From Margaritifera margaritifera (taxonomy: Eukaryota; Mollusca; Bivalvia; Unionida; Margaritiferidae): 64,000 bases of DNA. Positions 8,504 to 52,947 of this stretch are shown here, piece by piece. Numbering within the stretch: the stretch's first letter is position 1; each line of letters starts with the position of its first letter. The stretch covers positions 1,154,501 through 1,218,500 of the forward strand of contig JAQPZY010001561.1 of the NCBI GenBank assembly GCA_029931535.1. Direction: 5' to 3'. The position numbers and the translations under genes were made by a program. The notes below the pieces were generated by a model, which made no database searches, was not told the DNA's origin, and saw only the letters and a list, made by a program, of their open reading frames with translations.

Positions 8504-8624
8504 CACATTATTATACGAGGGAGCAAGAAATGTGATGCCTTTAGTTTTATGCATTCAAGCATAAGCAAACTATAACAAACCAGATTAGTGAAAGCTGGTG
8601 ACCGATGATATTTCCCCTGTGTAC

Positions 8625-15842: not shown

Positions 15843-15958
15843 CATGCACATTTTTAATGTAGGGGCGGAAAAAAGAAATCCTGAAAGCCAGAAAGTATTC
15901 AATGTACATTTCTTACATAGGGGCGGAAACAATGAAATCCCGAAAGCCGGCTATTTTG
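15843..15958. repeat. Tandem duplication, 58-bp period
   Basis: Two copies share 'aggggcgga' (15861 and 15919), 'gaaatcc' and 'gaaagcc' in the same order, with moderate divergence. Confidence 0.75.
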
Positions 15959-16212
15959 GTACACGAGAGTGTTTTGGTGAGCTGTAAAGAAAAGATCAGT
16001 TAACAACGAGTAGTAGTAATATCGAGGAAATTATGTCATTGTTATTATGACACAATTTATATACTTTTTTTATTTCGTAAAAAGACAATGAAAGATACAC
16101 TAATAATAAATGACGTCGAAAAGAAAAAGATACATTACATATATTGAAGAGATAAAATCTTAACATTGGTTATAAATCATAATTTTGAAAAATAATTGGC
16201 TTTTGTACTTAC

Positions 16213-16387: not shown

Positions 16388-16491
16388 AAATTGCCGCAGC
16401 CCCTCGGTTAAATTTAATCTCAAACCATCATTCAAACTGGCGAAATTAAAGTCAAAGATGAACTCAAAATGGAACGTGTATACAGCCCTTC
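16388..16491 (-). CDS. Transmembrane mucin exon: first half of SEA domain
   Basis: The acceptor TTATTTCAG precedes 16491 and the donor TTT|GTAAGT follows 16388. The 104 bp exon enters in phase 1: its GA completes the G left by the giant mucin exon to make GGA (Gly), so the join reads SEAPNIG-RAVYTFHFEF. It leaves in phase 0. The peptide alternates hydrophobic residues (YTFHFEFIFDFNFASLND) as in the first SEA strand, then LRLNLTEGLRQF as the start of the first helix. SEA domains sit near the membrane in mucins, often self-cleave and keep the two subunits associated. The link to the second SEA half is unresolved. Confidence 0.75.
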
Positions 16492-23147: not shown

Positions 23148-26100
23148 CTATATTTGGTGCTTCAGAAGGGTACAGCTTAGTAGGTAGGAATGTAGTTCTC
23201 GCTGATGCATTGGTACTAACTGTCGACGGAGCTCCTTTCCTAGATATGGAACTTGTCATTGTAGATGTACTTCCTGTTGGAGTGGTCCAGGATGATAATG
23301 ATATTTCTGATGTTGATGTTGGAATTGTTGTTGTTAGAGTGCTACTAGCAGTCGAAGCAGTTTCCTTTGCAGATGACGCACCTGGCACTGCAATTGTACT
23401 TTCTGTAGGATTGGTACCAAATGTTGATATTGTTGACGTTGCAGATGCGAGACGTGTCCTTGTAGTAGTACCGGCTGTAGGAATGGTACTATCTGTAGAC
23501 GATGGTCCTGATGTAGGTGTTCTTGTAGTTGTACTGGCTGTTGGATAAGTACTAACTGTCGACGATGGTCCTGATGTAGGTGTTGGACTTGTTCTTGTGG
23601 TTGTATTGGCTGTTGGAATAGAACTAGCTGCTGACGATGGACTTGATGCAGGTATTGGACTTGTTTTAATTGAACCAGGTGTTGATGATGGTCCTGATGT
23701 ACGAGTTGGAGGTGTTCTTGTAGTTGTACTGGCTGTTGGAATGGTGTCATCTCTAGACGTTGGTCCTGATGAAAGTGTGGGACTTGTTTGTTTAGTTGTA
23801 CTGGCTGTTTGAATGGTACTAGCTGTTGACAATGGTCCTGATGTAGGTGTTTGACTTGTTCTTGTAGTTGTACTGACTGTTGCATTAGTAGTAACTGTCG
23901 ACGATGATCCTGTTGTAGGAGTTGTACTTGTTCTTATAGTTGTACTGACTGTTGGATTAGTACTAGCTGTCGACGATGGTCCTGATGTAGGTGTTGGACT
24001 TGTTCTTGTGGTTGTATTGGCTGTTGGAATGGAAGTAACTGTTGAGGATGGTCCTGATGCAGGTGTCAGACTTGTTCTTGTAGTTGTACTGGCTGTAGGA
24101 AAGGTACTAGCTGTTGACGATGGTCCTGATGTAGTTGTTGGACTAGTTCTTGTGGTTGTATTGACTGTTGAAATGGAACTTGCTGTTGACGATGGACCTG
24201 ATGTAGGTGTTGGACTTGTTGCTGTGGCTGTATCGGTTGTTTTAATAGAACTCGGTGCTGATGATGGTCCTGATGTAGGAACTGGAGTTCTTGTAGTTGT
24301 ACTGGCTATTGGAATGGTACTAGTTGTTGACGACACTCCTAATGTAGGTGTGGGACGTGCTATTATAGTTGTACTGACTATTTGGATGCTACTAGCTGTT
24401 GACGATGGAGGTTTTGGACTTGTTTCTGTTGTTGTATCGGCTGTTTTAATAGAACTAGGTGTTGATGATGGTCCAGATGTAGGAGTTGGAGGTGTTCTTG
24501 TAGGTGTACTGGCTGTTGGAATGGTACTATCTCTAGACGTAGGTCCTGATGAAGGTGTGGGACTTGTTTGTCTAGTTGTACTGGCTGTTGGAATGGTACT
24601 AGCTGTTGACGATGATCCTGTTGTACGTGTTGGACTTGTTCTTGTAAATGTACTGGCTGTCGGATTAGTACTAACTGTCGACGATGGACCTGATGTAGGT
24701 GTTGCACTTGCTCTTGTGGTTGTATTGGCTGTTGGAATGGAACCAGCTGTTGACGATTGACCGGAAGTAGGTTTTGGACTTGTTCCTGTGGTTGCATCGG
24801 CTGTTTTAATAGAACCAGGTGTTGATGATGGTCCTGATGTAGGAGTTGGAGGTGTTCTTGTAGTTGTTCTGGCTGTTGTAATGGTACCATCTCTAGATGT
24901 TGGTCCTGATGAAAGCGTGCGACTTGTTTGTCTAGTTGTACTGGCTGTTTGAATGGTACTAGCTGTTGACGATGGTCGTGATGTAGGTGACGGACTTGTT
25001 CTTGATGTTGTGCTGGCTGTTGGAATCGTACTAGTTGTCGAAGATTGTCCTGATGTAGGTGTTGGACTTGTTCTTGTAGTTGCACTGGCAGATGGATTAG
25101 TGCTAACTGTCGACAATGGTAGTGATGTAGGTGTTGAACTTGTTCTTGTGGTTGTACCCGCTGTTGGAATGGAACTAGCTGTTGACGAAGGACCTGATAT
25201 AGGTGTGATATTTGTTGCTGTAGTTGTAATGCCTGTTGGAATTGTACTCGCTGTCAACGATATACCTGATGTAGGTTTTGGACTTGTTTCTGTGGTTGTA
25301 TCGGCTGCTTTAATAGAACTAGGTGTTGATGACGGTCCTGATGTAGGAGTTGGAAGTGTTCTTGTAGTTGTACTGGCTGTTGGAATGGTACCATCTCTAG
25401 ACGTTGGTCCTGATGAACTTGTGGGACTTGTTTGTCTAGTTGTACTGGCTGTTGGAATGGTACTATCTATTGACGATGGTCCTGATGAAGGTGTCAGACT
25501 TGTTCTTGTAGTTCTACTGGTTGTAGGAAAGGTACTAGCTGTTGACAATGGTCCTGATGTAGGTGTTGGAATTTTTCTTGTGGTTGTATTGGCTGTCGAA
25601 ATGGAACTAGCTGTTGACGATGGACCTGATGTAGGCGTTGGACCTGTTGCTGTGGCTGTATCGGCTGTTTTAATAGTACTAGGTGTTGATGATTGTCCTG
25701 ATGTAGGAGTTGGTGTTCTTGTAGTTGTCCTGGCTGTTGGAATGGTACTGTCTCTAGACGTAGGTCCTGATGAAGGTGAGGGATTTGTTTGTCTTGTTGT
25801 AGTGGCTGTTGGAATGGTAATAGCTTTTGACGATGGTCCTGATGTAGGTTTTGGACTTGTTCTTGTAGTTGTACTGTCTGTTGGATTAGTACTAACTGTC
25901 GACGATGGTCCTGATTTAGGTGTTGGACTTGTTCTTGTGGTTGTACCCGCTGTTGGAATGGAACTAGCTGTTGATACTGGACCTGATGTAGGCGTGGGAC
26001 TTGTTGCCGTTTTTGTAATGGCTCTTGGAATTGTACTCGGTGTCAACGATGTACCTGATGTAGGTGTCGGACTTGTTCCTGTGGCTCTATTGGCTGTTTT

Positions 26101-28000: not shown

Positions 28001-31000
28001 TGACTAGTTGTACTGGCTGTTGGAATGGTACTAGCTGTTGACGATGATCCTGTTGTATGTATTGTACTTGTTCTTGTAGTTGTACTGGCTGTTGGATTAG
28101 TAGTAACTGCCGACGATGGTCCCGATGTAGGTGTTGGACTTGTTCTTGTGGTTGTATCTTCTGTTTCGATAGAACTAGTTGTTGATGATGGTCCTGATGT
28201 AGGAGTTGGAGGTGTTCTTGTAGTTGTACTGGCTGTTTGAATGGTGCTATCTCTAGACGTTGGTCCTGGTGAAGGTGTGGGACTTGTTTGTCTAGTTGTA
28301 CTGGCTGTTGGAATGGTACTAGCTGTTGACGATGATCCTGTTGTAGGTGTTGGACTTGTTCTTGTAGTTTTACTGGTCGTTGGATTAGTACTAACTGTCG
28401 ACGATGGTCCTGATGTAGGAGTTGAAGCTGTCCTTGTAGTTGAACTGGCTGTTGGAATGGTACTAGCTGATGACGATGGTCCTGATGCAGGTGTTGGACT
28501 TGTTTGTCTAGTTGTACTGGCTGTTGGAATGGGACTAGGTGTCGAGGTGGGGTTTGTTGCTGTAGATGTACTCACTGTTGAATTAGTAGTAACTGTCGAC
28601 GATGGTCCTGATGTAGGTAACGGACTTGTTCTTGAGGTTATGCTGGTTGTTGGAATCGTTCTAGCTGTCGTAGAGTGTCCTGATGTAGGTGTTGGAATTG
28701 TTCTTGTAGTTGTACTGGCAATTGGATTAGTACTAACTGTCGACGATGGTAGTGATGTAGGTGTTTGACTTTTTCTTGTGGTTGTACCCGCTGTTGGAAT
28801 GGAAATAGTTGTTGACGATGGACCTGATATAGGTGTTGGATTTGTTGCTGTAGTTGTAGTGCCTGTTGGAATTGTACTCGCTGTCAACGATATCCTTGAT
28901 GTAGGTTTTTGACTTGTTTCTGTGGTTGTATCGGCTGTTTTAATAGAACTAGGTGTTGATGATGGTCCTGATGTAGGAGTTGGAGGTGTTCTTGTAGTTG
29001 TACTGGCTGTTGGAATGGTACTATCTCTAGACGTTGGTCCTGATGAAGGTGTGGGACTTGTTTGTCTAGTTGTACTGGCTGTTGGAATGGTACTGGCTGT
29101 TGACGATGATCCTGTTGTAGGTGTTGGACTTGTTCTTGTAGTTGTACTGGCTGTTGTAATGGAACTACCTGTTGACGATGGACCTGATGTTGGTTTTGGA
29201 CTTGTTTCTGTGGCTGTATCGGGTGTTTTAAAAGGACTAGGTGTTGATGATTGTCCTGTTGTAGGAGTTGGAGGTGTTCTTGTTGTTGTACTGGCTGTTG
29301 GATTAGTAGTAACTGTCGACGATGATCCTGTTATGGGTGTTGTACTTGTTCTTGTAGTTGTACTGACTATTGGATGAGTACTAACTGTCGACGATGATCC
29401 CAATGTTGGTGTGGGACTTGTACTTGTTGTTTTACTGGCAGTTTGATTAGTATTAACTGTCGACAATGGTAGTGATGTAGGTGTTGGACTTGATCTTGTG
29501 GTTGCACCCGCTGTTGGAATGGAAATAGTTGTCGACGATGGTCCTGATATAGGAGTTGGAGCTGTCCTTGTAGTTGAACTGGCTGTTGGAATGGTACTAG
29601 CTGTTGACGATGGTCCTGATGCAGGTGTTGGACTTGTTTGTCTAGTTGTACTGGCTGTTGGAATGGGACTAGGTGTCGACGTTGATCCTGATGTAGGTTT
29701 GGGGTTTGTTGCTGTAGATGTACTGACTGTTGGATTCGTAGTAACTGTCGACGATGGTCCCGATGTAGGTGACGGACTTGGTCTTGAGGTTGTATTAGCT
29801 GTTGGAATGGTAATAGCTGTCGAAGATTGTTCTGATGTAGGTGTTGGACTTGTTCTTGTAGTTGTACTGGGAGTTGGATTAGTACTAACTGTCGACGATG
29901 GTAGTGATGTAGGTGTTGGACTTGTTCTTATGGTTGTTCCCGCTGTTGGAATGGAAATAGTTGTTGACGATGGACCTGATATAGGTGTTGGATTTGTTGC
30001 TGTAGTTGTAATGCCTGTTGGAATTGTACTCGCTGTCAACGATATACCTGACGCAGGTTTTGGACTTGTTTCTGTTTTTGTATCGGCTGATTTAATAGAA
30101 CTAGGTGTTGATGATGGTCCTGATGTAGGAGTTGGAGGTGTTCTTGTAGTTGTACTGGCTGTTTGAATGGTACTATCTCTAGACGTTGGTCCTGATTGAG
30201 GTGTGGGACTTGTTTGTCTAGTTGTACTGGCTGTTGGAATGTGACTAGGTGTCGACGTTGGTCCTGATGTTGGTTTGGTGTTTGTTGCTGTAGATGTACT
30301 GACTGTTGGATTAGTAGTAACTGTCGACGATGGACCTGATGTAGGTGACGGACTTGTTCTTGTAGTTGAACTGGCTGTTTCAATGGTACTAGTTGTTGAT
30401 GATGGTCCTGATGTAGGAGTTGGAGGTGTTCTTGTAGTTGTACTGGCTGTTTGAATGGTGCTATCTCTAGACGTTGGTCCTGGTGAAGGTGTGGGACTTG
30501 TTTGTCTAGTTGTACTGGCTGTTGGAATGGTACTAGCTGTTGACGATGATCCTGTTGTAGGTGTTGGACTTGTTCTTGTAGTTTTACTGGTCGTTGGATT
30601 AGTACTAACTGTCGACGATGGTCCTGATGTAGGAGTTGGAGCTGTCCTTGTAGTTGAACTGGCTGTTGGAATGGTACTAGCTGTTGACGATGGTCCTGAT
30701 GCAGGTGTTGGACTTGTTTGTCTAGTTGTACTGGCTGTTGGAATGGGACTAGGTGTCGACGTTGGTCCTGATGTAGGTTTGGGGTTTGTTGCTGTAGATG
30801 TATTCACTGTCACTGTTGAATTAGTAGTAACTGTCGACGATGGTCCTGATGTAGGAGTTGGAGCTGTCCTTGTAGTTGAACTGGCTGTTGGAATGGTACT
30901 AGCTGTTGACGATGGTCCTGATGCAGGTGTTGGACTTGTTTGTCTAGTTGTACTGGCTGTTGGAATGGGACTAGGTGTCGAGGTGGGGTTTGTTGCTGTA

Positions 31001-34000
31001 GATGTACTCACTGTTGAATTAGTAGTAACTGTCGACGATGGTCCTGATGTAGGTAACGGACTTGTTCTTGAGGTTATGCTGGTTGTTGGAATCGTTCTAG
31101 CTGTCGTAGAGTGTCCTGATGTAGGTGTTGGAATTGTTCTTGTAGTTGTACTGGCAATTGGATTAGTACTAACTGTCGACGATGGTAGTGATGTAGGTGT
31201 TTGACTTTTTCTTGTGGTTGTACCCGCTGTTGGAATGGAAATAGTTGTTGATGATGGACCTGATATAGGTGTTGGATTTGTTGCTGTAGTTGTAGTGCCT
31301 GTTGGAATTGTACTCGCTGTCAACGATATACTTGATGTAGGTTTTTGACTTGTTTCTGTGGTTGTATCGGCTGTTTTAATAGAACTAGGTGTTGATGATG
31401 GTCCTGATGTAGGAGTTGGAGGTGTTCTTGTAGTTGTACTGGCTGTTGGAATGGTACTATCTCTAGACGTTGGTCCTGATGAAGGTGTGGGACTTGTTTG
31501 TCTAGTTGTACTGGCTGTTGGAATGGTACTGGCTGTTGACGATGATCCTGTTGTAGGTATTGGACTTGTTCTTGTAGTTGTACTGGCTGTTGTAATGGAA
31601 CTACCTGTTGACGATGGACCTGATGTTGGTTTTGGACTTGTTTCTGTGGCTGTATCGGGTGTTTTAAAAGGACTAGGTGTTGATGATTGTCCTGTTGTAG
31701 GAGTTGGAGGTGTTCTTGTTGTTGTACTGGCTGTTGGATTAGTAGTAACTGTCGACGATGATCCTGTTATGCGTGTTGTACTTGTTCTTGTAGTTGTACT
31801 GACTATTGGATGAGTACTAACTGTCGACGATGATCCCAATGTTGGTGTGGGACTTGTACTTGTTGTTTTACTGGCAGTTTGATTAGTATTAACTGTCGAC
31901 AATGGTAGTGATGTAGGTGTTGGACTTGATCTTGTGGTTGCACCCGCTGTTGGAATGGAAATAGTTGTCGACGATGGTCCTGATATAGGAGTTGGAGCTG
32001 TCCTTGTAGTTGAACTGGCTGTTGGAATGGTACTAGCTGTTGACGATGGTCCTGATGCAGGTGTTGGACTTGTTTGTCTAGTTGTACTGGCTGTTGGAAT
32101 GGGACTAGGTGTCGACGTTGGTCCTGATGTAGGTTTGGGGTTTGTTGCTGTAGATGTACTGACTGTTGGATTCGTAGTAACTGTCGACGATGGTCCCGAT
32201 GTAGGTGACGGACTTGGTCTTGAGGTTGTATTGGCTGTTGGAATGGTAATAGCTGTCGAAGATTGTTCTGATGTAGGTGTTGGACTTGTTCTTGTAGTTG
32301 TACTGGGAGTTGGATTAGTACTAACTGTCGACGATGGTAGTGATGTAGGTGTTGGACTTGTTCTTATGGTTGTTCCCGCTGTTGGAATGGAAATAGTTGT
32401 TGACGATGGACCTGATATAGGTGTCGGATTTGTTGCTGTAGTTGTAATGCCTGTTGGAATTGTACTCGCTGTCAACGATATACCTGACGCAGGTTTTGGA
32501 CTTGTTTCTGTTTTTGTATCGGCTGATTTAATAGAACTAGGTGTTGATGATGGTCCTGATGTAGGAGTTGGAGGTGTTCTTGTAGTTGTACTGGCTGTTT
32601 GAATGGTACTATCTCTAGACGTTGGTCCTGATTGAGGTGTGGGACTTGTTTGTCTAGTTGTACTGGCTGTTGGAATGTGACTAGGTGTCGACGTTGGTCC
32701 TGATGTTGGTTTGGTGTTTGTTGCTGTAGATGTACTGACTGTTGGATTAGTAGTAACTGTCGACGATGGACCTGATGTAGGTGACGGACTTGTTCTTGTA
32801 GTTGAACTGGCTGTTTCAATGGTACTAGTTGTTGATGATGGTCCTGATGTAGGAGTTGGAGGTGTTCTTGTAGTTGTACTGGCTGTTTGAATGGTGCTAT
32901 CTCTAGACGTTGGTCCTGGTGAAGGTGTGGGACTTGTTTGTCTAGTTGTACTGGCTGTTGGAATGGTACTAGCTGTTGACGATGATCCTGTTGTAGGTGT
33001 TGGACTTGTTCTTGTAGTTTTACTGGTCGTTGGATTAGTACTAACTGTCGACGATGGTCCTGATGTAGGAGTTGGAGCTGTCCTTGTAGTTGAACTGGCT
33101 GTTGGAATGGTACTAGCTGTTGACGATGGTCCTGATGCAGGTGTTGGACTTGTTTGTCTAGTTGTACTGGCTGTTGGAATGGGACTAGGTGTCGACGTTG
33201 GTCCTGATGTAGGTTTGGGGTTTGTTGCTGTAGATGTACTCACTGTTGAATTAGTAGTAACTGTCGACGATGGTCCTGATGTAGGTGACGGACTTGTTCT
33301 TGAGGTTATGCTGGTTGTTGGAATCGTTCTAGCTGTCGTAGAGTGTCCTGATGTAGGTGTTGGAATTGTTCTTGTAGTTGTACTGGCAATTGGATTAGTA
33401 CTAACTGTCGACGATGGTAGTGATGTAGGTGTTTGACTTTTTCTTGTGGTTGTACCCGCTGTTGGAATGGAAATAGTTGTTGACGATGGACCTGATATAG
33501 GTGTTGGATTTGTTGCTGTAGTTGTAGTGCCTGTTGGAATTGTACTCGCTGTCAACGATATACTTGATGTAAGTTTTGGACTTGTTTCTGTGGTTGTATC
33601 GGCTGTTTTAATAGAACTAGGTGTTGATGATGGTCCTGATGTAGGAGTTGGAGGTGTTCTTGTAGTTGTACTGGCTGTTGGAATGGTACTATCTCTAGAC
33701 GTTGGTCCTGATGAAGGTGTGGGACTTGTTTGTCTAGTTGTACTGGCTGTTGGAATGGTACTGGCTGTTGACGATGATCCTGTTGTAGGTATTGGACTTG
33801 TTCTTGTAGTTGTACTGGCTGTTGTAATGGAACTACCTGTTGACGATGGACCTGATGTTGGTTTTGGACTTGTTTCTGTGGCTGTATCGGGTGTTTTAAA
33901 AGGACTAGGTGTTGATGATTGTCCTGTTGTAGGAGTTGGAGGTGTTCTTGTTGTTGTACTGGCTGTTGGATTAGTAGTAACTGTCGACGATGATCCTGTT

Positions 34001-37000
34001 ATGGGTGTTGTACTTGTTCTTGTAGTTGTACTGACTATTGGATGAGTACTAACTGTCGACGATGATCCCAATGTTGGTGTGGGACTTGTACTTGTTGTTT
34101 TACTGGCAGTTTGATTAGTATTAACTGTCGACAATGGTAGTGATGTAGGTGTTGGACTTGATCTTGTGGTTGCACCCGCTGTTGGAATGGAACTAGTTGT
34201 CGACGATGGTCCTGATATAGGAGTTGGAGCTGTCCTTGTAGTTGAACTGGCTGTTGGAATGGTACTAGCTGTTGACGATGGTCCTGATGCAGGTGTTGGA
34301 CTTGTTTGTCTAGTTGTACTGGCTGTTGGAATGGGACTAGGTGTCGACGTTGGTCCTGATGTAGGTTTGGGGTTTGTTGCTGTAGATGTACTGACTGTTG
34401 GATTCGTAGTAACTGTCGACGATGGTCCCGATGTAGGTGACGGACTTGGTCTTGAGGTTGTATTGGCTGTTGGAATGGTAATAGCTGTCGAAGATTGTTC
34501 TGATGTAGGTGTTGGACTTGTTCTTGTAGTTGTACTGGGAGTTGGATTAGTACTAACTGTCGACGATGGTAGTGATGTAGGTGTTGGACTTGTTCTTATG
34601 GTTGTTCCCGCTGTTGGAATGGAAATAGTTGTTGACGATGGACCTGATATAGGTGTTGGATTTGTTGCTGTAGTTGTAATGCCTGTTGGAATTGTACTCG
34701 CTGTCAACGATATACCTGACGCAGGTTTTGGACTTGTTTCTGTTTTTGTATCGGCTGATTTAATAGAACTAGGTGTTGATGATGGTCCTGATGTAGGAGT
34801 TGGAGGTGTTCTTGTAGTTGTACTGGCTGTTTGAATGGTACTATCTCTAGACGTTGGTCCTGATTGAGGTGTGGGACTTGTTTGTCTAGTTGTACTGGCT
34901 GTTGGAATGTGACTAGGTGTCGACGTTGGTCCTGATGTTGGTTTGGTGTTTGTTGCTGTAGATGTACTGACTGTTGGATTAGTAGTAACTGTCGACGATG
35001 GACCTGATGTAGGTGACGGACTTGTTCTTGTAGTTGAACTGGCTGTTTCAGTGGTACTAGTTGTTGATGATGGTCCTGATGTAGGAGTTGGAGGTGTTCT
35101 TGTAGTTGTACTGGCTGTTTGAATGGTGCTATCTCTAGACGTTGGTCCTGGTGAAGGTGTGGGACTTGTTTGTCTAGTTGTACTGGCTGTTGGAATGGTA
35201 CTAGCTGTTGACGATGATCCTGTTGTAGGTGTTGGACTTGTTCTTGTAGTTTTACTGGTCGTTGGATTAGTACTAACTGTCGACGATGGTCCTGATGTAG
35301 GAGTTGGAGCTGTCCTTGTAGTTGAACTGGCTGTTGGAATGGTACTAGCTGTTGACGATGGTCCTGATGCAGGTGTTGGACTTGTTTGTCTAGTTGTACT
35401 GGCTGTTGGAATGGGACTAGGTGTCGACGTTGGTCCTGATGTAGGTTTGGGGTTTGTTGCTGTAGATGTATTCACTGTCACTGTTGAATTAGTAGTAACT
35501 GTCGACGATGGTCCTGATGTAGGTGACGGACTTGTTCTTGAGGTTATGCTGGTTGTTGGAATCGTTCTAGCTGTCGTAGAGTGTCCTGATGTAGGTGTTG
35601 GAATTGTTCTTGTAGTTGTACTGGCAATTGGATTAGTACTAACTGTCGACGATGGTAGTGATGTAGGTGTTTGACTTTTTCTTGTGGTTGTACCCGCTGT
35701 TGGAATGGAAATAGTTGTTGACGATGGACCTGATATAGGTGTTGGATTTGTTGCTGTAGTTGTAGTGCCTGTTGGAATTGTACTCGCTGTCAACGATATA
35801 CTTGATGTAGGTTTTGGACTTGTTTCTGTGGTTGTATCGGCTGTTTTAATAGAACTAGGTGTTGATGATGGTCCTGATGTAGGAGTTGGAGGTGTTCTTG
35901 TAGTTGTACTGGCTGTTGGAATGGTACTATCTCTAGACGTTGGTCCTGATGAAGGTGTGGGACTTGTTTGTCTAGTTGTACTGGCTGTTGGAATGGTACT
36001 GGCTGTTGACGATGATCCTGTTGTAGGTATTGGACTTGTTCTTGTAGTTGTACTGGCTGTTGGATTAGTAGTAACTGCCGACGATGGTCCCGATGTAGGT
36101 GTTGGACTTGTTCTTGTGGTTGTATCTTCTGTTTCGATAGAACTAGTTGTTGATGATGGTCCTGATGTAGGAGTTGGAGGTGTTCTTGTAGTTGTACTGG
36201 CTGTTTGAATGGTGCTATCTCTAGACGTTGGTCCTGGTGAAGGTGTGGGACTTGTTTGTCTAGTTGTACTGGCTGTTGGAATGGTACTAGCTGTTGACGA
36301 TGATCCTGTTGTAGGTGTTGGACTTGTTCTTGTAGTTTTACTGGTCGTTGGATTAGTACTAACTGTCGACGATGGTCCTGATGTAGGAGTTGGAGCTGTC
36401 CTTGTAGTTGAACTGGCTGTTGGAATGGTACTAGCTGTTGACGATGGTCCTGATGCAGGTGTTGGACTTGTTTGTCTAGTTGTACTGGCTGTTGGAATGG
36501 GACTAGGTGTCGAGGTGGGGTTTGTTGCTGTAGATGTACTCACTGTTGAATTAGTAGTAACTGTCGACGATGGTCCTGATGTAGGTAACGGACTTGTTCT
36601 TGAGGTTATGCTGGTTGTTGGAATCGTTCTAGCTGTCGTAGAGTGTCCTGATGTAGGTGTTGGAATTGTTCTTGTAGTTGTACTGGCAATTGGATTAGTA
36701 CTAACTGTCGACGATGGTAGTGATGTAGGTGTTTGACTTTTTCTTGTGGTTGTACCCGCTGTTGGAATGGAAATAGTTGTTGACGATGGACCTGATATAG
36801 GTGTTGGATTTGTTGCTGTAGTTGTAGTGCCTGTTGGAATTGTACTCGCTGTCAACGATATCCTTGATGTAGGTTTTCGACTTGTTTCTGTGGTTGTATC
36901 GGCTGTTTTAATAGAACTAGGTGTTGATGATGGTCCTGATGTAGGAGTTGGAGGTGTTCTTGTAATTGTACTGGCTGTTGGAATGGTACTATCTCTAGAC

Positions 37001-40000: not shown

Positions 40001-43000
40001 ATTGGCTGTTGGAATGGTAATAGCTGTCGAAGATTGTTCTGATGTAGGTGTTGGACTTGTTCTTGTAGTTGTACTGGGAGTTGGATTAGTACTAACTGTC
40101 GACGATGGTCGTGATGTAGGTGTTGGACTTGTTCTTATGGTTGTTCCCGCTGTTGGAATGGAAATAGTTGTTGACGATGGACCTGATATAGGTGTTGGAT
40201 TTGTTGCTGTAGTTGTAATGCCTGTTGGAATTGTACTCGCTGTCAACGATATACCTGACGCAGGTTTTGGACTTGTTTCTGTTTTTGTATCGGCTGATTT
40301 AATAGAACTAGGTGTTGATGATGGTCCTGATGTAGGAGTTGGAGGTGTTCTTGTAGTTGTACTGGCTGTTTGAATGGTACTATCTCTAGACGTTGGTCCT
40401 GATTGAGGTGTGGGACTTGTTTGTCTAGTTGTACTGGCTGTTGGAATGTGACTAGGTGTCGACGTTGGTCCTGATGTTGGTTTGGTGTTTGTTGCTGTAG
40501 ATGTACTGACTGTTGGATTAGTAGTAACTGTCGACGATGGACCTGATGTAGGTGACGGACTTGTTCTTGTAGTTGAACTGGCTGTTTCAGTGGTACTAGT
40601 TGTTGATGATGGTCCTGATGTAGGAGTTGGAGGTGTTCTTGTAGTTGTACTGGCTGTTTGAATGGTGCTATCTCTAGACGTTGGTCCTGGTGAAGGTGTG
40701 GGACTTGTTTGTCTAGTTGTACTGGCTGTTGGAATGGTACTAGCTGTTGACGATGATCCTGTTGTAGGTGTTGGACTTGTTCTTGTAGTTTTACTGGTCG
40801 TTGGATTAGTACTAACTGTCGACGATGGTCCTGATGTAGGAGTTGGAGCTGTCCTTGTAGTTGAACTGGCTGTTGGAATGGTACTAGCTGTTGACGATGG
40901 TCCTGATGCAGGTGTTGGACTTGTTTGTCTAGTTGTACTGGCTGTTGGAATGGGACTAGGTGTCGACGTTGGTCCTGATGTAGGTTTGGGGTTTGTTGCT
41001 GTAGATGTATTCACTGTCACTGTTGAATTAGTAGTAACTGTCGACGATGGTCCTGATGTAGGTGACGGACTTGTTCTTGAGGTTATGCTGGTTGTTGGAA
41101 TCGTTCTAGCTGTCGTAGAGTGTCCTGATGTAGGTGTTGGAATTGTTCTTGTAGTTGTACTGGCAATTGGATTAGTACTAACTGTCGACGATGGTAGTGA
41201 TGTAGGTGTTTGACTTTTTCTTGTGGTTGTACCCGCTGTTGGAATGGAAATAGTTGTTGACGATGGACCTGATATAGGTGTTGGATTTGTTGCTGTAGTT
41301 GTAGTGCCTGTTGGAATTGTACTCGCTGTCAACGATATACTTGATGTAGGTTTTGGACTTGTTTCTGTGGTTGTATCAGCTGTTTTAATAGAACTAGGTG
41401 TTGATGATGGTCCTGATGTAGGAGTTGGAGGTGTTCTTGTAGTTGTACTGGCTGTTGGAATGGTACTATCTCTAGACGTTGGTCCTGATGAAGGTGTGGG
41501 ACTTGTTTGTCTAGTTGTACTGGCTGTTGGAATGGTACTGGCTGTTGACGATGATCCTGTTGTAGGTATTGGACTTGTTCTTGTAGTTGTACTGGCTGTT
41601 GGATTAGTAGTAACTGCCGACGATGGTCCCGATGTAGGTGTTGGACTTGTTCTTGTGGTTGTATCTTCTGTTTCGATAGAACTAGTTGTTGATGATGGTC
41701 CTGATGTAGGAGTTGGAGGTGTTCTTGTAGTTGTACTGGCTGTTTGAATGGTGCTATCTCTAGACGTTGGTCCTGGTGAAGGTGTGGGACTTGTTTGTCT
41801 AGTTGTACTGGCTGTTGGAATGGTACTAGCTGTTGACGATGATCCTGTTGTAGGTATTGGACTTGTTCTTGTAGTTGTACTGGCTGTTGTAATGGAACTA
41901 CCTGTTGACGATGGACCTGATGTTGGTTTTGGACTTGTTTCTGTTGCTGTATCGGGTGTTTTAAAAGGACTAGGTGTTGATGATTGTCCTGTTGTAGGAG
42001 TTGGAGGTGTTCTTGTTGTTGTACTGGCTGTTGGATTAGTAGTAACTGTCGACGATGATCCTGTTATGGGTGTTGTACTTGTTCTTGTAGTTGTTCTGAC
42101 TATTGGATGAGTACTAACTGTCGACGATGATCCCAATGTTGGTGTGGGACTTGTACTTGTTGTTTTACTGGCAGTTTGATTAGTATTAACTGTCGACAAT
42201 GGTAGTGATGTAGGTGTTGGACTTGATCTTGTGGTTGCACCCGCTGTTGGAATGGAACTAGTTGTCGACGATGGTCCTGATATAGGAGTTGGAGCTGTCC
42301 TTGTAGTTGAACTGGCTGTTGGAATGGTACTAGCTGTTGACGATGGTCCTGATGCAGGTGTTGGACTTGTTTGTCTAGTTGTACTGGCTGTTGGAATGGG
42401 ACTAGGTGTCGACGTTGGTCCTGATGTAGGTTTGGGGTTTGTTGCTGTAGATGTACTGACTGTTGGATTCGTAGTAACTGTCGACGATGGTCCCGATGTA
42501 GGTGACGGACTTGGTCTTGAGGTTGTATTGGCTGTTGGAATGGTAATAGCTGTCGAAGATTGTTCTGATGTAGGTGTTGGACTTGTTCTTGTAGTTGTAC
42601 TGGGAGTTGGATTAGTACTAACTGTCGACGATGGTAGTGATGTAGGTGTTGGACTTGTTCTTATGGTTGTTCCCGCTGTTGGAATGGAAATAGTTGTTGA
42701 CGATGGACCTGATATAGGTGTTGGATTTGTTGCTGTAGTTGTAATGCCTGTTGGAATTGTACTCGCTGTCAACGATATACCTGACGCAGGTTTTGGACTT
42801 GTTTCTGTTTTTGTATCGGCTGATTTAATAGAACTAGGTGTTGATGATGGTCCTGATGTAGGAGTTGGAGGTGTTCTTGTAGTTGTACTGGCTGTTTGAA
42901 TGGTACTATCTCTAGACGTTGGTCCTGATTGAGGTGTGGGACTTGTTTGTCTAGTTGTACTGGCTGTTGGAATGTGACTAGGTGTCGACGTTGGTCCTGA

Positions 43001-46000
43001 TGTTGGTTTGGTGTTTGTTGCTGTAGATGTACTGACTGTTGGATTAGTAGTAACTGTCGACGATGGACCTGATGTAGGTGACGGACTTGTTCTTGTAGTT
43101 GAACTGGCTGTTTCAGTGGTACTAGTTGTTGATGATGGTCCTGATGTAGGAGTTGGAGGTGTTCTTGTAGTTGTACTGGCTGTTTGAATGGTGCTATCTC
43201 TAGACGTTGGTCCTGGTGAAGGTGTGGGACTTGTTTGTCTAGTTGTACTGGCTGTTGGAATGGTACTAGCTGTTGACGATGATCCTGTTGTAGGTGTTGG
43301 ACTTGTTCTTGTAGTTTTACTGGTCGTTGGATTAGTACTAACTGTCGACGATGGTCCTGATGTAGGAGTTGGAGCTGTCCTTGTAGTTGAACTGGCTGTT
43401 GAAATGGTACTAGCTGTTGACGATGGTCCTGATGCAGGTGTTGGACTTGTTTGTCTAGTTGTACTGGCTGTTGGAATGGGACTAGGTGTCGACGTTGGTC
43501 CTGATGTAGGTTTGGGGTTTGTTGCTGTAGATGTATTCACTGTCACTGTTGAATTAGTAGTAACTGTCGACGATGGTCCTGATGTAGGTGACGGACTTGT
43601 TCTTGAGGTTATGCTGGTTGTTGGAATCGTTCTAGCTGTCGTAGTGTTTCCTGATGTAGGTGTTGGAATTGTTCTTGTAGTTGTACTGGCAATTGGATTA
43701 GTACTAACTGTCGACGATGGTAGTGATGTAGGTGTTTGACTTTTTCTTGTGGTTGTACCCGCTGTTGGAATGGAAATAGTTGTTGACGATGGACCTGATA
43801 TAGGTGTTGGATTTGTTGCTGTAGTTGTAGTGCCTGTTGGAATTGTACTCGCTGTCAACGATATACTTGATGTAGGTTTTGGACTTGTTTCTGTGGTTGT
43901 ATCAGCTGTTTTAATAGAACTAGGTGTTGATGATGGTCCTGATGTAGGAGTTGGAGGTGTTCTTGTAGTTGTACTGGCTGTTGGAATGGTACTATCTCTA
44001 GACTTTGGTCCTGATGAAGGTGTGGGACTTGTTTGTCTAGTTGTACTGGCTGTTGGAATGGTACTGGCTGTTGACGATGATCCTGTTGTAGGTATTGGAC
44101 TTGTTCTTGTAGTTGTACTGGCTGTTGGATTAGTAGTAACTGCCGACGATGGTCCCGATGTAGGTGTTGGACTTGTTCTTGTGGTTGTATCTTCTGTTTC
44201 GATAGAACTAGTTGTTGATGATGGTCCTGATGTAGGAGTTGGAGGTGTTCTTGTAGTTGTACTGGCTGTTTGAATGGTGCTATCTCTAGACGTTGGTCCT
44301 GGTGAAGGTGTGGAACTTGTTTGTCTAGTTGTACTGGCTGTTGGAATGGTACTAGCTGTTGATGATGATCCTGTTGTAGGTGTTGGACTTGTTCTTGTAG
44401 TTTTACTGGTCGTTGGATTAGTACTAACTGTCGACGATGGTCCTGATGTAGGAGTTGGAGCTGTCCTTGTAGTTGAACTGGCTGTTGGAATGGTACTAGC
44501 TGTTGACGATGGTCCTGATGCAGGTGTTGGACTTGTTTGTCTAGTTGTACTGGCTGTTGGAATGGGACTAGGTGTCGAGGTGGGGTTTGTTGCTGTAGAT
44601 GTACTCACTGTTGAATTAGTAGTAACTGTCGACGATGGTCCTGATGTAGGTAACGGACTTGTTCTTGAGGTTATGCTGGTTGTTGGAATCGTTCTAGCTG
44701 TCGTAGAGTGTCCTGATGTAGGTGTTGGAATTGTTCTTGTAGTTGTACTGGCAATTGGATTAGTACTAACTGTCGACGATGGTAGTGATGTAGGTGTTTG
44801 ACTTTTTCTTGTGGTTGTACCCGCTGTTGGAATGGAAATAGTTGTTGACGATGGACCTGATATAGGTGTTGGATTTGTTGCTGTAGTTGTAGTGCCTGTT
44901 GGAATTGTACTCGCTGTCAACGATATCCTTGATGTAGGTTTTCGACTTGTTTCTGTGGTTGTATCGGCTGTTTTAATAGAACTAGGTGTTGATGATGGTC
45001 CTGATGTAGGAGTTGGAGGTGTTCTTGTAATTGTACTGGCTGTTGGAATGGTACTATCTCTAGACGTTGGTCCTGATGAAGGTGTGGGACTTGTTTGTCT
45101 AGTTGTACTGGCTGTTGGAATGGTACTGGCTGTTGACGATGATCCTGTTGTAGGTATTGGACTTGTTCTTGTAGTTGTACTGGCTGTTGTAATGGAACTA
45201 CCTGTTGACGATGGACCTGATGTTGGTTTTGGACTTGTTTCTGTGGCTGTATCGGGTGTTTTAAAAAAACTAGGTGTTGATGATTGTCCTGTTGTAGGAG
45301 TTGGAGGTGTTCTTGTTGTTGTACTGGCTGTTGGATTAGTAGTAACTGTCGACGATGATCCTGTTATGGGTGTTGTACTTGTTCTTGTAGTTGTTCTGAC
45401 TATTGGATGAGTACTAACTGTCGACGATGATCCCAATGTTGGTGTGGGACTTGTACTTGTTGTTTTACTGGCAGTTTGATTAGTATTAACTGTCGACAAT
45501 GGTAGTGATGTAGGTGTTGGACTTGATCTTGTGGTTGCACCCGCTGTTGGAATGGAACTAGTTGTCGACGATGGTCCTGATATAGGAGTTGGAGCTGTCC
45601 TTGTAGTTGAACTGGCTGTTGGAATGGTACTAGCTGTTGACGATGGTCCTGATGCAGGTGTTGGACTTGTTTGTCTAGTTGTACTGGCTGTTGGAATGGG
45701 ACTAGGTGTCGACGTTGGTCCTGATGTAGGTTTGGGGTTTGTTGCTGTAGATGTACTGACTGTTGGATTCATAGTAACTGTCGACGATGGTCCCGATGTA
45801 GGTGACGGACTTGGTCTTGAGGTTGTATTGGCTGTTGGAATGGTAATAGCTGTCGAAGATTGTTCTGATGTAGGTGTTGGACTTGTTCTTGTAGTTGTAC
45901 TGGGAGTTGGATTAGTACTAACTGTCGACGATGGTAGTGATGTAGGTGTTGGACTTGTTCTTATGGTTGTTCCCGCTGTTGGAATGGAAATAGTTGTTGA

Positions 46001-49000
46001 CGATGGACCTGATATAGGTGTTGGATTTGTTGCTGTAGTTGTAATGCCTGTTGGAATTGTACTCGCTGTCAACGATATACCTGACGCAGGTTTTGGACTT
46101 GTTTCTGTTTTTGTATCGGCTGATTTAATAGAACTAGGTGTTGATGATGGTCCTGATGTAGGAGTTGGAGGTGTTCTTGTAGTTGTACTGGCTGTTTGAA
46201 TGGTACTATCTCTAGACGTTGGTCCTGATTGAGGTGTGGGACTTGTTTGTCTAGTTGTACTGGCTGTTGGAATGTGACTAGGTGTCGACGTTGGTCCTGA
46301 TGTTGGTTTGGTGTTTGTTGCTGTAGATGTACTGACTGTTGGATTAGTAGTAACTGTCGACGATGGACCTGATGTAGGTGACGGACTTGTTCTTGTAGTT
46401 GAACTGGCTGTTTCAATGGTACTAGTTGTTGATGATGGTCCTGATGTAGGAGTTGGAGGTGTTCTTGTAGTTGTACTGGCTGTTTGAATGGTGCTATCTC
46501 TAGACGTTGGTCCTGGTGAAGGTGTGGGACTTGTTTGTCTAGTTGTACTGGCTGTTGGAATGGTACTAGCTGTTGACGATGATCCTGTTGTAGGTGTTGG
46601 ACTTGTTCTTGTAGTTTTACTGGTCGTTGGATTAGTACTAACTGTCGACGATGGTCCTGATGTAGGAGTTGGAGCTGTCCTTGTAGTTGAACTGGCTGTT
46701 GGAATGGTACTAGCTGTTGACGATGGTCCTGATGCAGGTGTTGGACTTGTTTGTCTAGTTGTACTGGCTGTTGGAATGGGACTAAGTGTCGACGTTGGTC
46801 CTGATGTAGGTTTGGGGTTTGTTGCTGTAGATGTACTCACTGTTGAATTAGTAGTAACTGTCGACGATGGTCCTGATGTAGGTGACGGACTTGTTCTTGA
46901 GGTTATGCTGGTTGTTGGAATCGTTCTAGCTGTCGTAGAGTGTCCTGATGTAGGTGTTGGAATTGTTCTTGTAGTTGTACTGGCAATTGGATTAGTACTA
47001 ACTGTCGACGATGGTAGTGATGTAGGTGTTTGACTTTTTCTTGTGGTTGTACCCGCTGTTGGAATGGAAATAGTTGTTGACGATGGACCTGATATAGGTG
47101 TTGGATTTGTTGCTGTAGTTGTAGTGCCTGTTGGAATTGTACTCGCTGTCAACGATATACTTGATGTAGGTTTTGGACTTGTTTCTGTGGTTGTATCGGC
47201 TGTTTTAATAGAACTAGGTGTTGATGATGGTCCTGATGTAGGAGTTGGAGGTGTTCTTGTAGTTGTACTGGCTGTTGGAATGGTACTATCTCTAGACGTT
47301 GGTCCTGATGAAGGTGTGGGACTTGTTTGTCTAGTTGTACTGGCTGTTGGAATGGTACTGGCTGTTGACGATGATCCTGTTGTAGGTATTGGACTTGTTC
47401 TTGTAGTTGTACTGGCTGTTGTAATGGAACTACCTGTTGACGATGGACCTGATGTTGGTTTTGGACTTGTTTCTGTGGCTGTATCGGGTGTTTTAAAAGG
47501 ACTAGGTGTTGATGATTGTCCTGTTGTAGGAGTTGGAGGTGTTCTTGTTGTTGTACTGGCTGTTGGATTAGTAGTAACTGTCGACGATGATCCTGTTATG
47601 GGTGTTGTACTTGTTCTTGTAGTTGTACTGACTATTGGATGAGTACTAACTGTCGACGATGATCCCAATGTTGGTGTGGGACTTGTACTTGTTGTTTTAC
47701 TGGCAGTTTGATTAGTATTAACTGTCGACAATGGTAGTGATGTAGGTGTTGGACTTGATCTTGTGGTTGCACCCGCTGTTGGAATGGAACTAGTTGTCGA
47801 CGATGGTCCTGATATAGGAGTTGGAGCTGTCCTTGTAGTTGAACTGGCTGTTGGAATGGTACTAGCTGTTGACGATGGTCCTGATGCAGGTGTTGGACTT
47901 GTTTGTCTAGTTGTACTGGCTGTTGGAATGGGACTAGGTGTCGACGTTGGTCCTGATGTAGGTTTGGGGTTTGTTGCTGTAGATGTACTGACTGTTGGAT
48001 TCGTAGTAACTGTCGACGATAGTCCCGATGTAGGTGACGGACTTGGTCTTGAGGTTGTATTGGCTGTTGGAATGGTAATAGCTGTCGAAGATTGTTCTGA
48101 TGTAGGTGTTGGACTTGTTCTTGTAGTTGTACTGGGAGTTGGATTAGTACTAACTGTCGACGATGGTAGTGATGTAGGTGTTGGACTTGTTCTTATGGTC
48201 GTTCCCGCTGTTGGAATGGAAATAGTTGTTGACGATGGACCTGATATAGGTGTTGGATTTGTTGCTGTAGTTGTAATGCCTGTTGGAATTGTACTCGCTG
48301 TCAACGATATACCTGACGCAGGTTTTGGACTTGTTTCTGTTTTTGTATCGGCTGATTTAATAGAACTAGGTGTTGATGATGGTCCTGATGTAGGAGTTGG
48401 AGGTGTTCTTGTAGTTGTACTGGCTGTTTGAATGGTACTATCTCTAGACGTTGGTCCTGATTGAGGTGTGGGACTTGTTTGTCTAGTTGTACTGGCTGTT
48501 GGAATGTGACTAGGTGTCGACGTTGGTCCTGATGTTGGTTTGGTGTTTGTTGCTGTAGATGTACTGACTGTTGGATTAGTAGTAACTGTCGACGATGGAC
48601 CTGATGTAGGTGACGGACTTGTTCTTGTAGTTGAACTGGCTGTTTCAATGGTACTAGTTGTTGATGATGGTCCTGATGTAGGAGTTGGAGGTGTTCTTGT
48701 AGTTGTACTGGCTGTTTGAATGGTGCTATCTCTAGACGTTGGTCCTGGTGAAGGTGTGGGACTTGTTTGTCTAGTTGTACTGGCTGTTGGAATGGTACTA
48801 GCTGTTGATGATGATCCTGTTGTAGGTGTTGGACTTGTTCTTGTAGTTTTACTGGTCGTTGGATTAGTACTAACTGTCGACGATGGTCCTGATGTAGGAG
48901 TTGGAGCTGTCCTTGTAGTTGAACTGGCTGTTGGAATGGTACTAGCTGTTGACGATGGTCCTGATGCAGGTGTTGGACTTGTTTGTCTAGTTGTACTGGC

Positions 49001-52000
49001 TGTTGGAATGGGACTAGGTGTCGACGTTGGTCCTGATGTAGGTTTGGGGTTTGTTGCTGTAGATGTACTCACTGTTGAATTAGTAGTAACTGTCGACGAT
49101 GGTCCTGATGTAGGTGACGGACTTGTTCTTGAGGTTATGCTGGTTGTTGGAATCGTTCTAGCTGTCGTAGAGTGTCCTGATGTAGGTGTTGGAATTGTTC
49201 TTGTAGTTGTACTGGCAATTGGATTAGTACTAACTGTCGACGATGGTAGTGATGTAGGTGTTTGACTTTTTCTTGTGGTTGTACCCGCTGTTGGAATGGA
49301 AATAGTTGTTGACGATGGACCTGATATAGGTGTTGGATTTGTTGCTGTAGTTGTAATGCCTGTTGGAATTGTACTCGCTGTCAACGATATACTTGATGTA
49401 GGTTTTGGACTTGTTTCTGTGGTTGTATCGGCTGTTTTAATAGAACTAGGTGTTGATGATGGTCCTGATGTAGGAGTTGGAGGTGTTCTTGTAGTTGTAC
49501 TGGCTGTTGGAATGGTACTATCTCTAGACGTTGGTCCTGATGAAGGTGTGGGACTTGTTTGTCTAGTTGTACTGGCTGTTGGAATGGTACTGGCTGTTGA
49601 CGATGATCCTGTTGTAGGTATTGGACTTGTTCTTGTAGTTGTACTGGCTGTTGTAATGGAACTACCTGTTGACGATGGACCTGATGTTGGTTTTGGACTT
49701 GTTTCTGTGGCTGTATCGGGTGTTTTAAAAGGACTAGGTGTTGATGATTGTCCTGTTGTAGGAGTTGGAGGTGTTCTTGTTGTTGTACTGGCTGTTGGAT
49801 TAGTAGTAACTGTCGACGATGATCCTGTTATGGGTGTTGTACTTGTTCTTGTAGTTGTTCTGACTATTGGATGAGTACTAACTGTCGACGATGATCCCAA
49901 TGTTGGTGTGGGACTTGTACTTGTTGTTTTACTGGCAGTTTGATTAGTATTAACTGTCGACAATGGTAGTGATGTAGGTGTTGGACTTGATCTTGTGGTT
50001 GCACCCGCTGTTGGAATGGAACTAGTTGTCGACGATGGTCCTGATATAGGAGTTGGAGCTGTCCTTGTAGTTGAACTGGCTGTTGGAATGGTACTAGCTG
50101 TTGACGATGGTCCTGATGCAGGTGTTGGACTTGTTTGTCTAGTTGTACTGGCTGTTGGAATGGGACTAGGTGTCGACGTTGGTCCTGATGTAGGTTTGGG
50201 GTTTGTTGCTGTAGATGTACTGACTGTTGGATTCGTAGTAACTGTCGACGATGGTCCCGATGTAGGTGACGGACTTGGTCTTGAGGTTGTATTGGCTGTT
50301 GGAATGGTAATAGCTGTCGAAGATTGTTCTGATGTAGGTGTTGGACTTGTTCTTGTAGTTGTACTGGGAGTTGGATTAGTACTAACTGTCGACGATGGTA
50401 GTGATGTAGGTGTTGGACTTGTTCTTATGGTTGTTCCCGCTGTTGGAATGGAAATAGTTGTTGACGATGGACCTGATATAGGTGTTGGATTTGTTGCTGT
50501 AGTTGTAATGCCTGTTGGAATTGTACTCGCTGTCAACGATATACCTGACGCAGGTTTTGGACTTGTTTCTGTTTTTGTATCGGCTGATTTAATAGAACTA
50601 GGTGTTGATGATGGTCCTGATGTAGGAGTTGGAGGTGTTCTTGTAGTTGTACTGGCTGTTTGAATGGTACTATCTCTAGACGTTGGTCCTGATTGAGGTG
50701 TGGGACTTGTTTGTCTAGTTGTACTGGCTGTTGGAATGTGACTAGGTGTCGACGTTGGTCCTGATGTTGGTTTGGTGTTTGTTGCTGTAGATGTACTGAC
50801 TGTTGGATTAGTAGTAACTGTCGACGATGGACCTGATGTAGGTGACGGACTTGTTCTTGTAGTTGAACTGGCTGTTTCAATGGTACTAGTTGTTGATGAT
50901 GGTCCTGATGTAGGAGTTGGAGGTGTTCTTGTAGTTGTACTGGCTGTTTGAATGGTGCTGTCTCTAGACGTTGGTCCTGGTGAAGGTGTGGGACTTGTTT
51001 GTCTAGTTGTACTGGCTGTTGGAATGGTACTAGCTGTTGACGATGATCCTGTTGTAGGTGTTGGACTTGTTCTTGTAGTTTTACTGGTCGTTGGATTAGT
51101 ACTAACTGTTGACGATGGTCCTGATGTAGGAGTTGGAGCTGTCCTTGTAGTTGAACTGGCTGTTGGAATGGTACTAGCTGTTGACGATGGTCCTGATGCA
51201 GGTGTTGGACTTGTTTGTCTAGTTGTACTGGCTGTTGGAATGGGACTAGGTGTCGACGTTGGTCCTGATGTAGGTTTGGGGTTTGTTGCTGTAGATGTAC
51301 TCACTGTTGAATTAGTAGTAACTGTCGACGATGGTCCTGATGTAGGTGACGGACTTGTTCTTGAGGTTATGCTGGTTGTTGGAATCGTTCTAGCTGTCGT
51401 AGAGTGTCCTGATGTAGGTGTTGGAATTGTTCTTGTAGTTGTACCTGCAATTGGATTAGTACTAACTGTCGACGATGGTAGTGATGTAGGTGTTTGACTT
51501 TTTCTTGTGGTTGTACCCGCTGTTGGAATGGAAATAGTTGTTGACGATGGACCTGATATAGGTGTTGGATTTGTTGCTGTAGTTGTAGTGCCTGTTGGAA
51601 TTGTACTCGCTGTCAACGATATACTTGATGTAGGTTTTGGACTTGTTTCTGTGGTTGTATCAGCTGTTTTAATAGAACTAGGTGTTGATGATGGTCCTGA
51701 TGTAGGAGTTGGAGGTGTTCTTGTAGTTGTACTGGCTGTTGGAATGGTACTATCTCTAGACGTTGGTCCTGATGAAGGTGTGGGACTTGTTTGTCTAGTT
51801 GTACTGGCTGTTGGAATGGTACTCGCTGTTGACGATGTACCTGATGTAGTTGTTGGACTTGTTTGTCTAGTTGTATTGGCTGTTGGAATTGTACCAACTC
51901 TAGACGTTGGTCCTGATGAAAGTGTGGGACTTTTTTGTCTAGTGGTACTAGCTCTTGACGATGATCCTGATGTAGGTGTTGGACTTGTTCTTGTAGTTTT

Positions 52001-52947
52001 ACTGGCTGTTGGATTAGTACTAACTGTTGACGATGGTCCTGATGTAGGTGTTGGACTTGTTCTTGTGGTTTTACTGGCTGTTGGAATTGGAGTATTTGTT
52101 GACGATGTTCCTGATGCAAGTGTCAGACTTGTTCTTTTAGTTGTACTGGCTGTAGGAAAGGTACTAGCTGTTGACGATTTTCCTGATGTAGGTGTTGGAC
52201 TTTTTCTTCTGGTTGTACCGTATGTTGGAAGGGCAGTGGCTGTTGATGATGTACCTGATATAGATGTGGGATTTGTTGCTGTAGTTGTAATGGCTGTTGG
52301 AAAGATACTAGCTGTTGACGATGGTCCTGATGTAGGTGTCAGACTTATTCTTGTTGTTGTAATAGCTGTTGGAATGGTAGTAACTATCGGAGATGGACTT
52401 ATCGTATGTGTTTGAGTTGTTCTTGTGGTTGTATCGGCTGTTGGAATGGAACTAGGAATTTCCGATGGTCCTGATGCAGGTGTCAGACTTTTTGTTCTTG
52501 TTTTACTGGCTGTAGGAATGGTACTAGCTGTATACAATGTACCTGATGTAGGTATTGGACTTATTCTTGTTGTTGGAATGGCTGTTGGAATGGTACCAGC
52601 CGTCGACGATGGTCCTGATGTAGGTGTTGGATTCGTTGTTGTAGTTGTAATGGCTGTTATAATGGTATTAACCGTCAAGGATGGTCCTGATGTAGGTGTT
52701 GGACTTGTTTTTGTACCGGCTATTGGAATGGTACTAGCTGTTGACGATGGTCCTGATGTAGATGATAGACTTGTTCCTGTATTTGTACTGACTGTTGGAA
52801 TGGTACTAACGCTCGACGACGTTCCTGATATAGGAGGTCGCGTGTTATAGGTGTTATTTACTATTGAACTTGTGATATTAGCTGTCGATGGAGTCAGTAG
52901 TATCGCGATCATGAATATTATTTTACTTCGAAACCACTTCAGAAAAC
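23148..52947 (-). CDS. Giant membrane mucin, Thr/Ser/Pro-repeat exon (one frameshift)
   Basis: This exon of about 29.8 kb encodes roughly 9,930 residues, nearly all Thr, Ser and Pro with a regular Arg, Gly and Ala or Val. The unit is 24 residues, for example SGPSSTASTIPTASTTTRTS, plus four more. Such sequence is the substrate for dense O-glycosylation and forms an extended, gel-like extracellular rod. There is essentially no Cys. The 5' end has an acceptor (CCCTCATATTAACAG) before 52947; the frame also stays open to an ATG at 52999. The 3' end is the donor ATATAG|GTAATT after 23148, phase 1, matching the SEA exon. Two open frames (52999 to 37853 and 37434 to 23035) are offset by one base because of an extra T at 37884-37886. 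It is the extracellular part of the gene whose SEA, EGF and TM exons lie at lower coordinates. Family assignment is by architecture; orthology to a named mucin is not claimed. Confidence 0.9.
28000..51830 (-). repeat. Homogenised core of the mucin array with higher-order repeats
   Basis: A marker variant (plus-strand gttgcacccgctgttgg) recurs at about 29498, 31934, 34166, 37466, 39705, 42231, 45531, 47763 and 49995. The intervals are 2436, 2232, 3300, 2239, 2526, 3300, 2232 and 2232 bp. The basal value 2,232 is 31 x 72. A second marker recurs with intervals of 2214, 2436, 2232, 1086, 2215, 2238, 1086, 1440, 1086, 2214, 2232 and 2232. The 2214 form lacks 18 bp (six residues, KPTSGP) and the 2238 form gains six (Thr-Val). 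Adjacent 2,232-bp units differ at only a few bases. Confidence 0.9.
37884..37886 (-). other. One-base insertion breaking the mucin frame
   Basis: On the plus strand this copy reads gtgtttggac where the equivalent position in the other copies reads gtgttggac (for example at 32347, 34580 and 40120). The extra T shifts the minus-strand frame and ends the upstream open frame at 37853, after a short altered tail. It may be an assembly or polishing error in a near-identical repeat, or a real null or truncating mutation. Confidence 0.9.
51830..52880 (-). repeat. Diverged N-terminal edge of the mucin array
   Basis: From about 51830 upward (toward the N-terminus) monomers become irregular in sequence and are no longer part of the 2,232-bp unit. 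They merge into a short non-repeated N-terminus (NITSSIVNNTYNTRPPISG) with a few N-glycosylation sequons. Confidence 0.8.
52880..52947 (-). other. Signal-peptide-coding start of the mucin exon
   Basis: The first codons read GFLKWFRSK, then the hydrophobic IIFMIAILL, then TPSTA followed by Asn. This is a basic n-region, an h-region of about nine residues and a small-residue c-region with a likely cut after STA. The initiator Met is either in an upstream exon joined in phase 1 at 52947, or the ATG at 52999 if no intron exists there, or the internal ATG at 52912, which would leave too short a leader. The acceptor before 52947 favours an upstream exon, which I could not find. Confidence 0.6.

Follow-up and report, generated by a model that had tools for sequence, protein, structure and literature searches.

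The DNA analyzed here is a stretch of 64,000 nucleotides of the bivalve Margaritifera margaritifera (contig JAQPZY010001561.1, positions 1,154,501 to 1,218,500 of the forward strand), hereafter the window, whose minus strand carries a mucin-type repeat exon of 29,800 nt (23148..52947) rich in proline, threonine and serine (PTS). In our model it is followed by six exons in phase, encoding a SEA-like region, a Cys-rich stretch with an EGF-like module, a predicted transmembrane helix and a tail. Two minus-strand stop-to-stop frames, 53038-37853 (5,061 aa) and 37896-23035 (4,953 aa), overlap by 44 nt and cover the exon; with the two sides of the frame break translated apart, positions 52947-23148 hold 5,020 + 4,912 = 9,932 codons and not a single stop. 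The other five frames contain between 85 and 1,230 stops (both sides of the break summed), namely 63+52 and 289+276 (upstream + downstream) in the shifted sense frames and 45+40, 399+406 and 624+606 in the antisense frames. The exon begins with two nucleotides completing a codon and a hydrophobic leader, FLKWFRSKIIFMIAILLTPSTA (KD-9 3.57), after which the 24-aa repeats follow, and it ends in phase 1. The preliminary description of this DNA, made from the sequence alone, had proposed that the minus strand encodes a mucin in one 29.8-kb exon bounded by an acceptor and a donor; the absence of stops together with the ends matched in the paralogs bears this out.

Serine plus threonine account for 0.551 of the exon product and proline for 0.153 (55% and 15%), cysteine is absent, and the product is net basic, with 552 K+R vs 160 D+E; it also contains 49 N-X-S/T sequons. 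Profile cutting yielded 414 units, 388 of which are exactly 24 aa long, in agreement with the 24-residue Thr/Ser/Pro repeats over about 9,930 residues described earlier. Because openness could simply be passed on when an array arises by copying of a single open unit, the 388 units of 24 aa were reduced to 51 representatives (<90% identical) before each column was permuted. No stop was seen in the 51 representatives, vs a permuted mean of 4.5 and a minimum of 1 in 1000 permutations; in a second run (n = 300) the mean was 4.3 stops, and the fraction of permutations with 0 stops was 0.003. The column permutation further revealed that S+T stands at the chance level, that P lies above every permutation and that K+R lies below nearly all of them.

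Three paralogs, a, b and c, were found on another contig of the same genome, C703. In each, anchor exons come after a T/S-rich exon, and where found, their exon order and phases are the same as at our locus. They came from a protein search of the genome with an early model of the anchor; its 30 matches at E ≤ 10 comprised, among others, the query locus and the C703 paralogs in the same exon order. For paralog c only two pieces of the anchor were seen. Paralog b has 72-nt units like those of the window, and for paralog a units of 72 nt are suggested by a spacing of 1,152 nt (16 x 72) in its antisense frames. As assembled, the mucin exons of the paralogs are shorter than that of the window, with 8,073 nt in b, about 1.7 kb in c and about 16.5 kb or more in a. 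The array of paralog a (C703:1-17019) starts at the contig end and shows at least two frame changes in its first 6.8 kb, while its last 10.4 kb is open. Two further relatives of the transmembrane exon, C1451:162297-162458 and C302:242475-242648, contain internal stops and are perhaps pseudogenes, and an open frame of 1,623 codons lies beside paralog c (C703:223892-228760, minus strand).

Splice sites were scored with our own generic matrices, and expected counts were taken from a first-order model (for donors, the mean of five resamples). The terminal acceptor of the mucin exon scores 6.83 and the terminal donor 6.82. The exon ends in LYPSEAPNI|G gtaatt, compared with LYPTEAPNI|G gtattg in paralog a and MYPTEAPNI|G gtattc in paralog b, so that the donor motif YP[T/S]EAPNI|G is common to the locus and both paralogs; the end in paralog c, MIYPTLKPLG, is related. 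At the other end, the locus and paralogs b and c share the acceptor phase, in which the first two bases complete a codon, and have similar hydrophobic leaders after it, the start of paralog a being cut off by the contig end. The exon limits are thus supported by two paralogs that share the donor motif and two that share the acceptor phase with the leader. An alternative donor at 23381, of the same phase and stronger (score 10.75), was not adopted, since in paralogs a and b the exon ends at YP[T/S]EAPNI|G instead.

Downstream on the minus strand, exon 2 (16388..16491, 104 nt) encodes RAVYTFHFEFIFDFNFASLNDGLRLNLTEGLRQF, a SEA-like strand/helix piece that has a counterpart of equal length and phases in paralog a (C703:22077-22180) and a similar piece in c. 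Exon 3 (15917..15981, 65 nt; LTKTLSCTKIAGFRDFIVSAP) has a same-phase counterpart of 65 nt in paralog a, and exon 4 (14199..14416, 218 nt; including VGSTKVPIEVNLSL) is rich in N-X-S/T and carries a G-S-x-x-V motif invariant in the locus, a and b. Exon 5 (13428..13611, 184 nt) encodes the Cys-rich stretch and the first part of the EGF-like module, which has six Cys and a GxxC end, and exon 6 (9273..9449, 177 nt) encodes the end of this module, a predicted transmembrane helix (KD-19 = 3.19) conserved in paralogs a and b, and the stop-transfer sequence RRRKDK. The cytoplasmic tail exon (8581..8695; RIQDEYSKWDDGEESVASFSFRLTGTQGKYHRSPAFTNL) has counterparts in a and b, and its 3′ end is an assumed weak donor; the similar pieces were located downstream of the two paralogs at E 4e-10 (a) and E 2e-11 (b), these E-values applying to those short regions only. 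Exons 2 to 6, with lengths of 104, 65, 218, 184 and 177 nt vs 104, 65, 206, 181 and 177 nt in paralog a, align with it end to end in equal phases at 40% identity. A ratio of nonsynonymous to synonymous substitution rates (dN/dS) of 0.55 was obtained for exons 4-6 between paralogs a and b, suggesting that the anchor is constrained, whereas the array of the window does not look constrained residue by residue. An exon at 21745-21643 that had first been placed after the mucin exon, and whose phases fit, was withdrawn, as no counterpart of it was found in paralogs a or b; it was replaced by 16491-16388 and 15981-15917, both of which are compatible in phase and matched by exons of a.

On this sequence evidence we read 23148..52947 as the central giant PTS exon of a minus-strand gene for a membrane-tethered mucin, and give the full model a probability of roughly 0.85. 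A tethered product, best read as such rather than as a simply secreted one, is suggested by the PTS exon together with the predicted helix and the tail. The preliminary description had spoken of a secreted rod, and of this the mucin part stands, while the product looks tethered, given EGF-like, transmembrane and tail exons that lie in phase and have counterparts in the paralogs. In the order of its pieces and in the invariant G-S-x-x-V, the first anchor region is reminiscent of a SEA module, as the spacing of the six Cys is of an EGF module.

A number of observations weigh against the model. At the level of the array, the 51 units give a dN/dS of 1.02 when read in the open frame and of 0.90 and 0.55 when read in the shifted ones, so that residue identity itself gives coding no support, and variants among copies of the higher-order repeat (HOR) described below comprise 11 silent, 23 replacement and 0 stop changes, close to the 29 : 68 : 3 percent or so expected under a neutral model. 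Only the frame, the absence of stops and the bulk composition look kept in the array. At the level of the anchor, Pfam SEA gave no match (E ≤ 10) for the locus, paralog b or the early model of paralog a. Pfam EGF matched only a 41-aa cut, at E 0.026 and 15.2 bits vs a curated cut-off of 21.5, and it did not match longer pieces from the locus, one of them of 80 aa, or two EGF-like pieces of the paralogs. Two protein database searches (470 and 4,573 candidates) returned no homolog at E ≤ 0.01; both queries included 33 residues of the withdrawn exon, and length limits excluded very long proteins. Exon 3 is the weakest exon: the similarity of its 21 residues, with a score of 24 in a, does not exceed the background, whose best scores in b and c are 23-24, and its placement follows from equal length, phase and position in paralog a. 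Counterparts of exons 2 and 3 were sought in paralog b and not found. The search for exon 1, with the start codon, gave four ATG-donor candidates in 53-64 kb, none of them favoured. Finally, the 29.8-kb frame has one interruption, a single-base break near 37.88 kb, discussed below; one inserted base as the only interruption had been claimed before, and a single frame break is confirmed.

No SEA structure was matched in the searches of the PDB, one of which was made with an alignment, and the PDB search with the EGF-like piece gave P-selectin at E 0.34. AlphaFold on exon 4 alone reached a pLDDT of 44.6 and was uninformative. When the upstream region was compared with those of the paralogs, the strong matches were confined to a stretch near 54 kb that looks like a transposon; all others were at E ≥ 0.006.

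The array is a three-level repeat, built of 72-nt units, a 31-unit HOR of 2,232 nt and multi-kb blocks. The HOR region (29059..51787, minus strand) holds 11 copies with the 31 unit types in a fixed order. Nine are full, measure 2,232-2,526 nt and are at least 99.3% identical to one another; the other two are partial, at 1,062 nt. At the block level, a repeat at a lag of 8,065 nt spans 4.3 kb at 99.4% identity and another at a lag of 13,597 nt spans 4.6 kb at 99.6%. No exact repeat is longer than 1,306 nt, and accurate long reads could therefore resolve the array. The HOR region is preceded by 17 of the 414 units and followed by 79; the preceding ones, and those following beyond roughly the first 14, are mostly unlike the HOR types. 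The alignment of the 11 HOR segments has gap runs of 18, 198, 204 and 288 nt and one of a single base, in addition to a run of 1,441 columns where the two partial copies lack their end. A 25-mer of the repeat occurs 27 times in the genome searched (G000, 2.45 Gb, 1,696 contigs), every time at the mucin locus. The exon would grow and shrink by unequal exchange between 72-nt units and between 2.2-kb HORs, which would keep the frame since the unit and HOR lengths seen, apart from the break, are multiples of three.

This satellite-like organization is the most interesting aspect of the locus. A tentative extension of the model, which we put forward as a possibility rather than as the expected outcome, is that the exon behaves as a coding satellite. 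It would then be built, as centromeric arrays are, of monomers, a HOR (here of 31 units) and larger blocks, with unequal exchange driving its turnover and dN/dS staying near 1; selection would see only the frame, the absence of stops and the bulk composition, and the phase-matched donor-like site in each full HOR could add frame-keeping length variants at the RNA level. The locus also offers a clean case in which to measure which features of a coding tandem array are maintained by selection and which are not.

That donor-like site raises the question of whether the exon, though real, is shortened by introns cut out within it, so that no transcript would carry all 29.8 kb. The site, CAG|GTAGTT, occurs once in each of the nine full HOR copies (9/9) and scores 7.47, which exceeds the 6.82 of the terminal donor. 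Acceptor-like sites inside the exon exceed the first-order expectation, with 554 vs 329 at score 0, 149 vs 77 at 2 and 49 vs 23 at 3, and all nine donors and the 12 best internal acceptors fall in one codon phase, so that splicing between them would keep the frame. However, the best internal acceptor reaches only 3.5 (none is at 5 or more), compared with 6.8 at the exon start, and donor-like sites scoring ≥4 number 40 vs 165 expected. The low acceptor score does not by itself exclude such splicing, since the acceptors of two downstream model exons score only 0.9-1.1. With the acceptor excess taken into account, we consider intra-exon splicing rather unlikely, and one undivided exon appears the better reading of the sequence than several.

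The frame break, for its part, might be a true mutation that leaves the gene broken in this individual and the anchor never translated, given that the assembly contains the break and that the reading frame meets a stop about 30 nt beyond it. The break lies within 37870..37896, where HOR6 and HOR7 differ; apart from that single base the two copies differ by one substitution, and hence the break is private to one of two copies that are otherwise one base apart. The array of paralog a also loses its frame near the contig end, which makes assembly indels plausible, although decay of a is possible too. The break would be either an error of the assembly or a private mutation of recent date, and a broken gene seems improbable to us. 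If the array were instead a satellite without coding function, its open frame a matter of chance, this would fit the dN/dS near 1 and the satellite-like higher-order structure. Against such a non-coding satellite stand the depletion of stops, the unique T/S-rich open ends that reach splice sites shared with the paralogs, the in-phase downstream exons and the paralogs of the same layout, and we regard it as very improbable.

For the tethered mucin preferred here, the array would be transcribed and spliced as a single exon, and a short upstream exon and the hydrophobic leader of the giant exon would direct the chain into the secretory pathway. The Thr/Ser/Pro rod of about 9,930 residues would be O-glycosylated and extended outside the cell, and the SEA-like and EGF-like modules, the transmembrane helix and the conserved tail would anchor it in the epithelial glycocalyx. 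From the length per residue, a chain of this size could form a glycocalyx rod on the micrometre scale.

In vertebrates, MUC3/MUC12/MUC17 and MUC4 combine a giant PTS exon with SEA-like/EGF-like modules, a transmembrane helix and a tail, and the locus is alike in having a giant PTS exon followed by anchor modules. It differs from them in its 24-aa units arranged in a 31-unit HOR, and no sequence homology to them was detectable in the searches made. Vertebrate mucin backbones are mostly uncharged, whereas the repeats described here are net basic. We best read the locus as a putative new tethered-mucin family, of a gene type already known and of very large size, which would add a family without a homolog in our protein database searches (E ≤ 0.01). 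Among the matches listed in searches of open-licence literature on octopus, cephalopod and mollusc mucins and on HORs in mucins, no title described this family.

Human MUC12 is likewise a tethered mucin with a variable number tandem repeat exon that dominates the gene. A 2026 preprint (PMC13345508) predicts that MUC12 alleles encode as many as 23,080 residues, over twice the number found here, and its authors describe the MUC12 exon as the largest coding exon in humans known to them. The size yardstick of the preliminary description, MUC16 with 21.7 kb as the largest human coding exon, does not hold according to this preprint, and given the MUC12 prediction the 29.8 kb of the present exon is very large but no record. 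The same preprint reports arrays more degenerate at their ends in about half of the human mucins studied, and the array of the window resembles these.

Among the Pfam matches of ten open reading frames (ORFs) of the window, no von Willebrand D or cystine-knot domain was found, no search dedicated to them having been made; Rfam gave 0 matches at the gathering score, and 0 tRNAs were detected. Upstream of the mucin exon, pieces of reverse transcriptase lie on the minus strand at 59858-61132, with an RVT_1 match at E 1e-4, below the cut-off, in 60878-61132. The reverse-transcriptase ORF at 59858-60505 had 22 protein matches, the named ones including Nucella lapillus, Alligator mississippiensis and Diadema setosum, and the stretch is probably a decayed retroelement. 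Closer to the exon, 53738-54025 (minus strand) shows a weak DDE_3 match (E 0.06) and is probably a DNA transposon, because a similar stretch, 56-59% identical, recurs upstream of paralog c.

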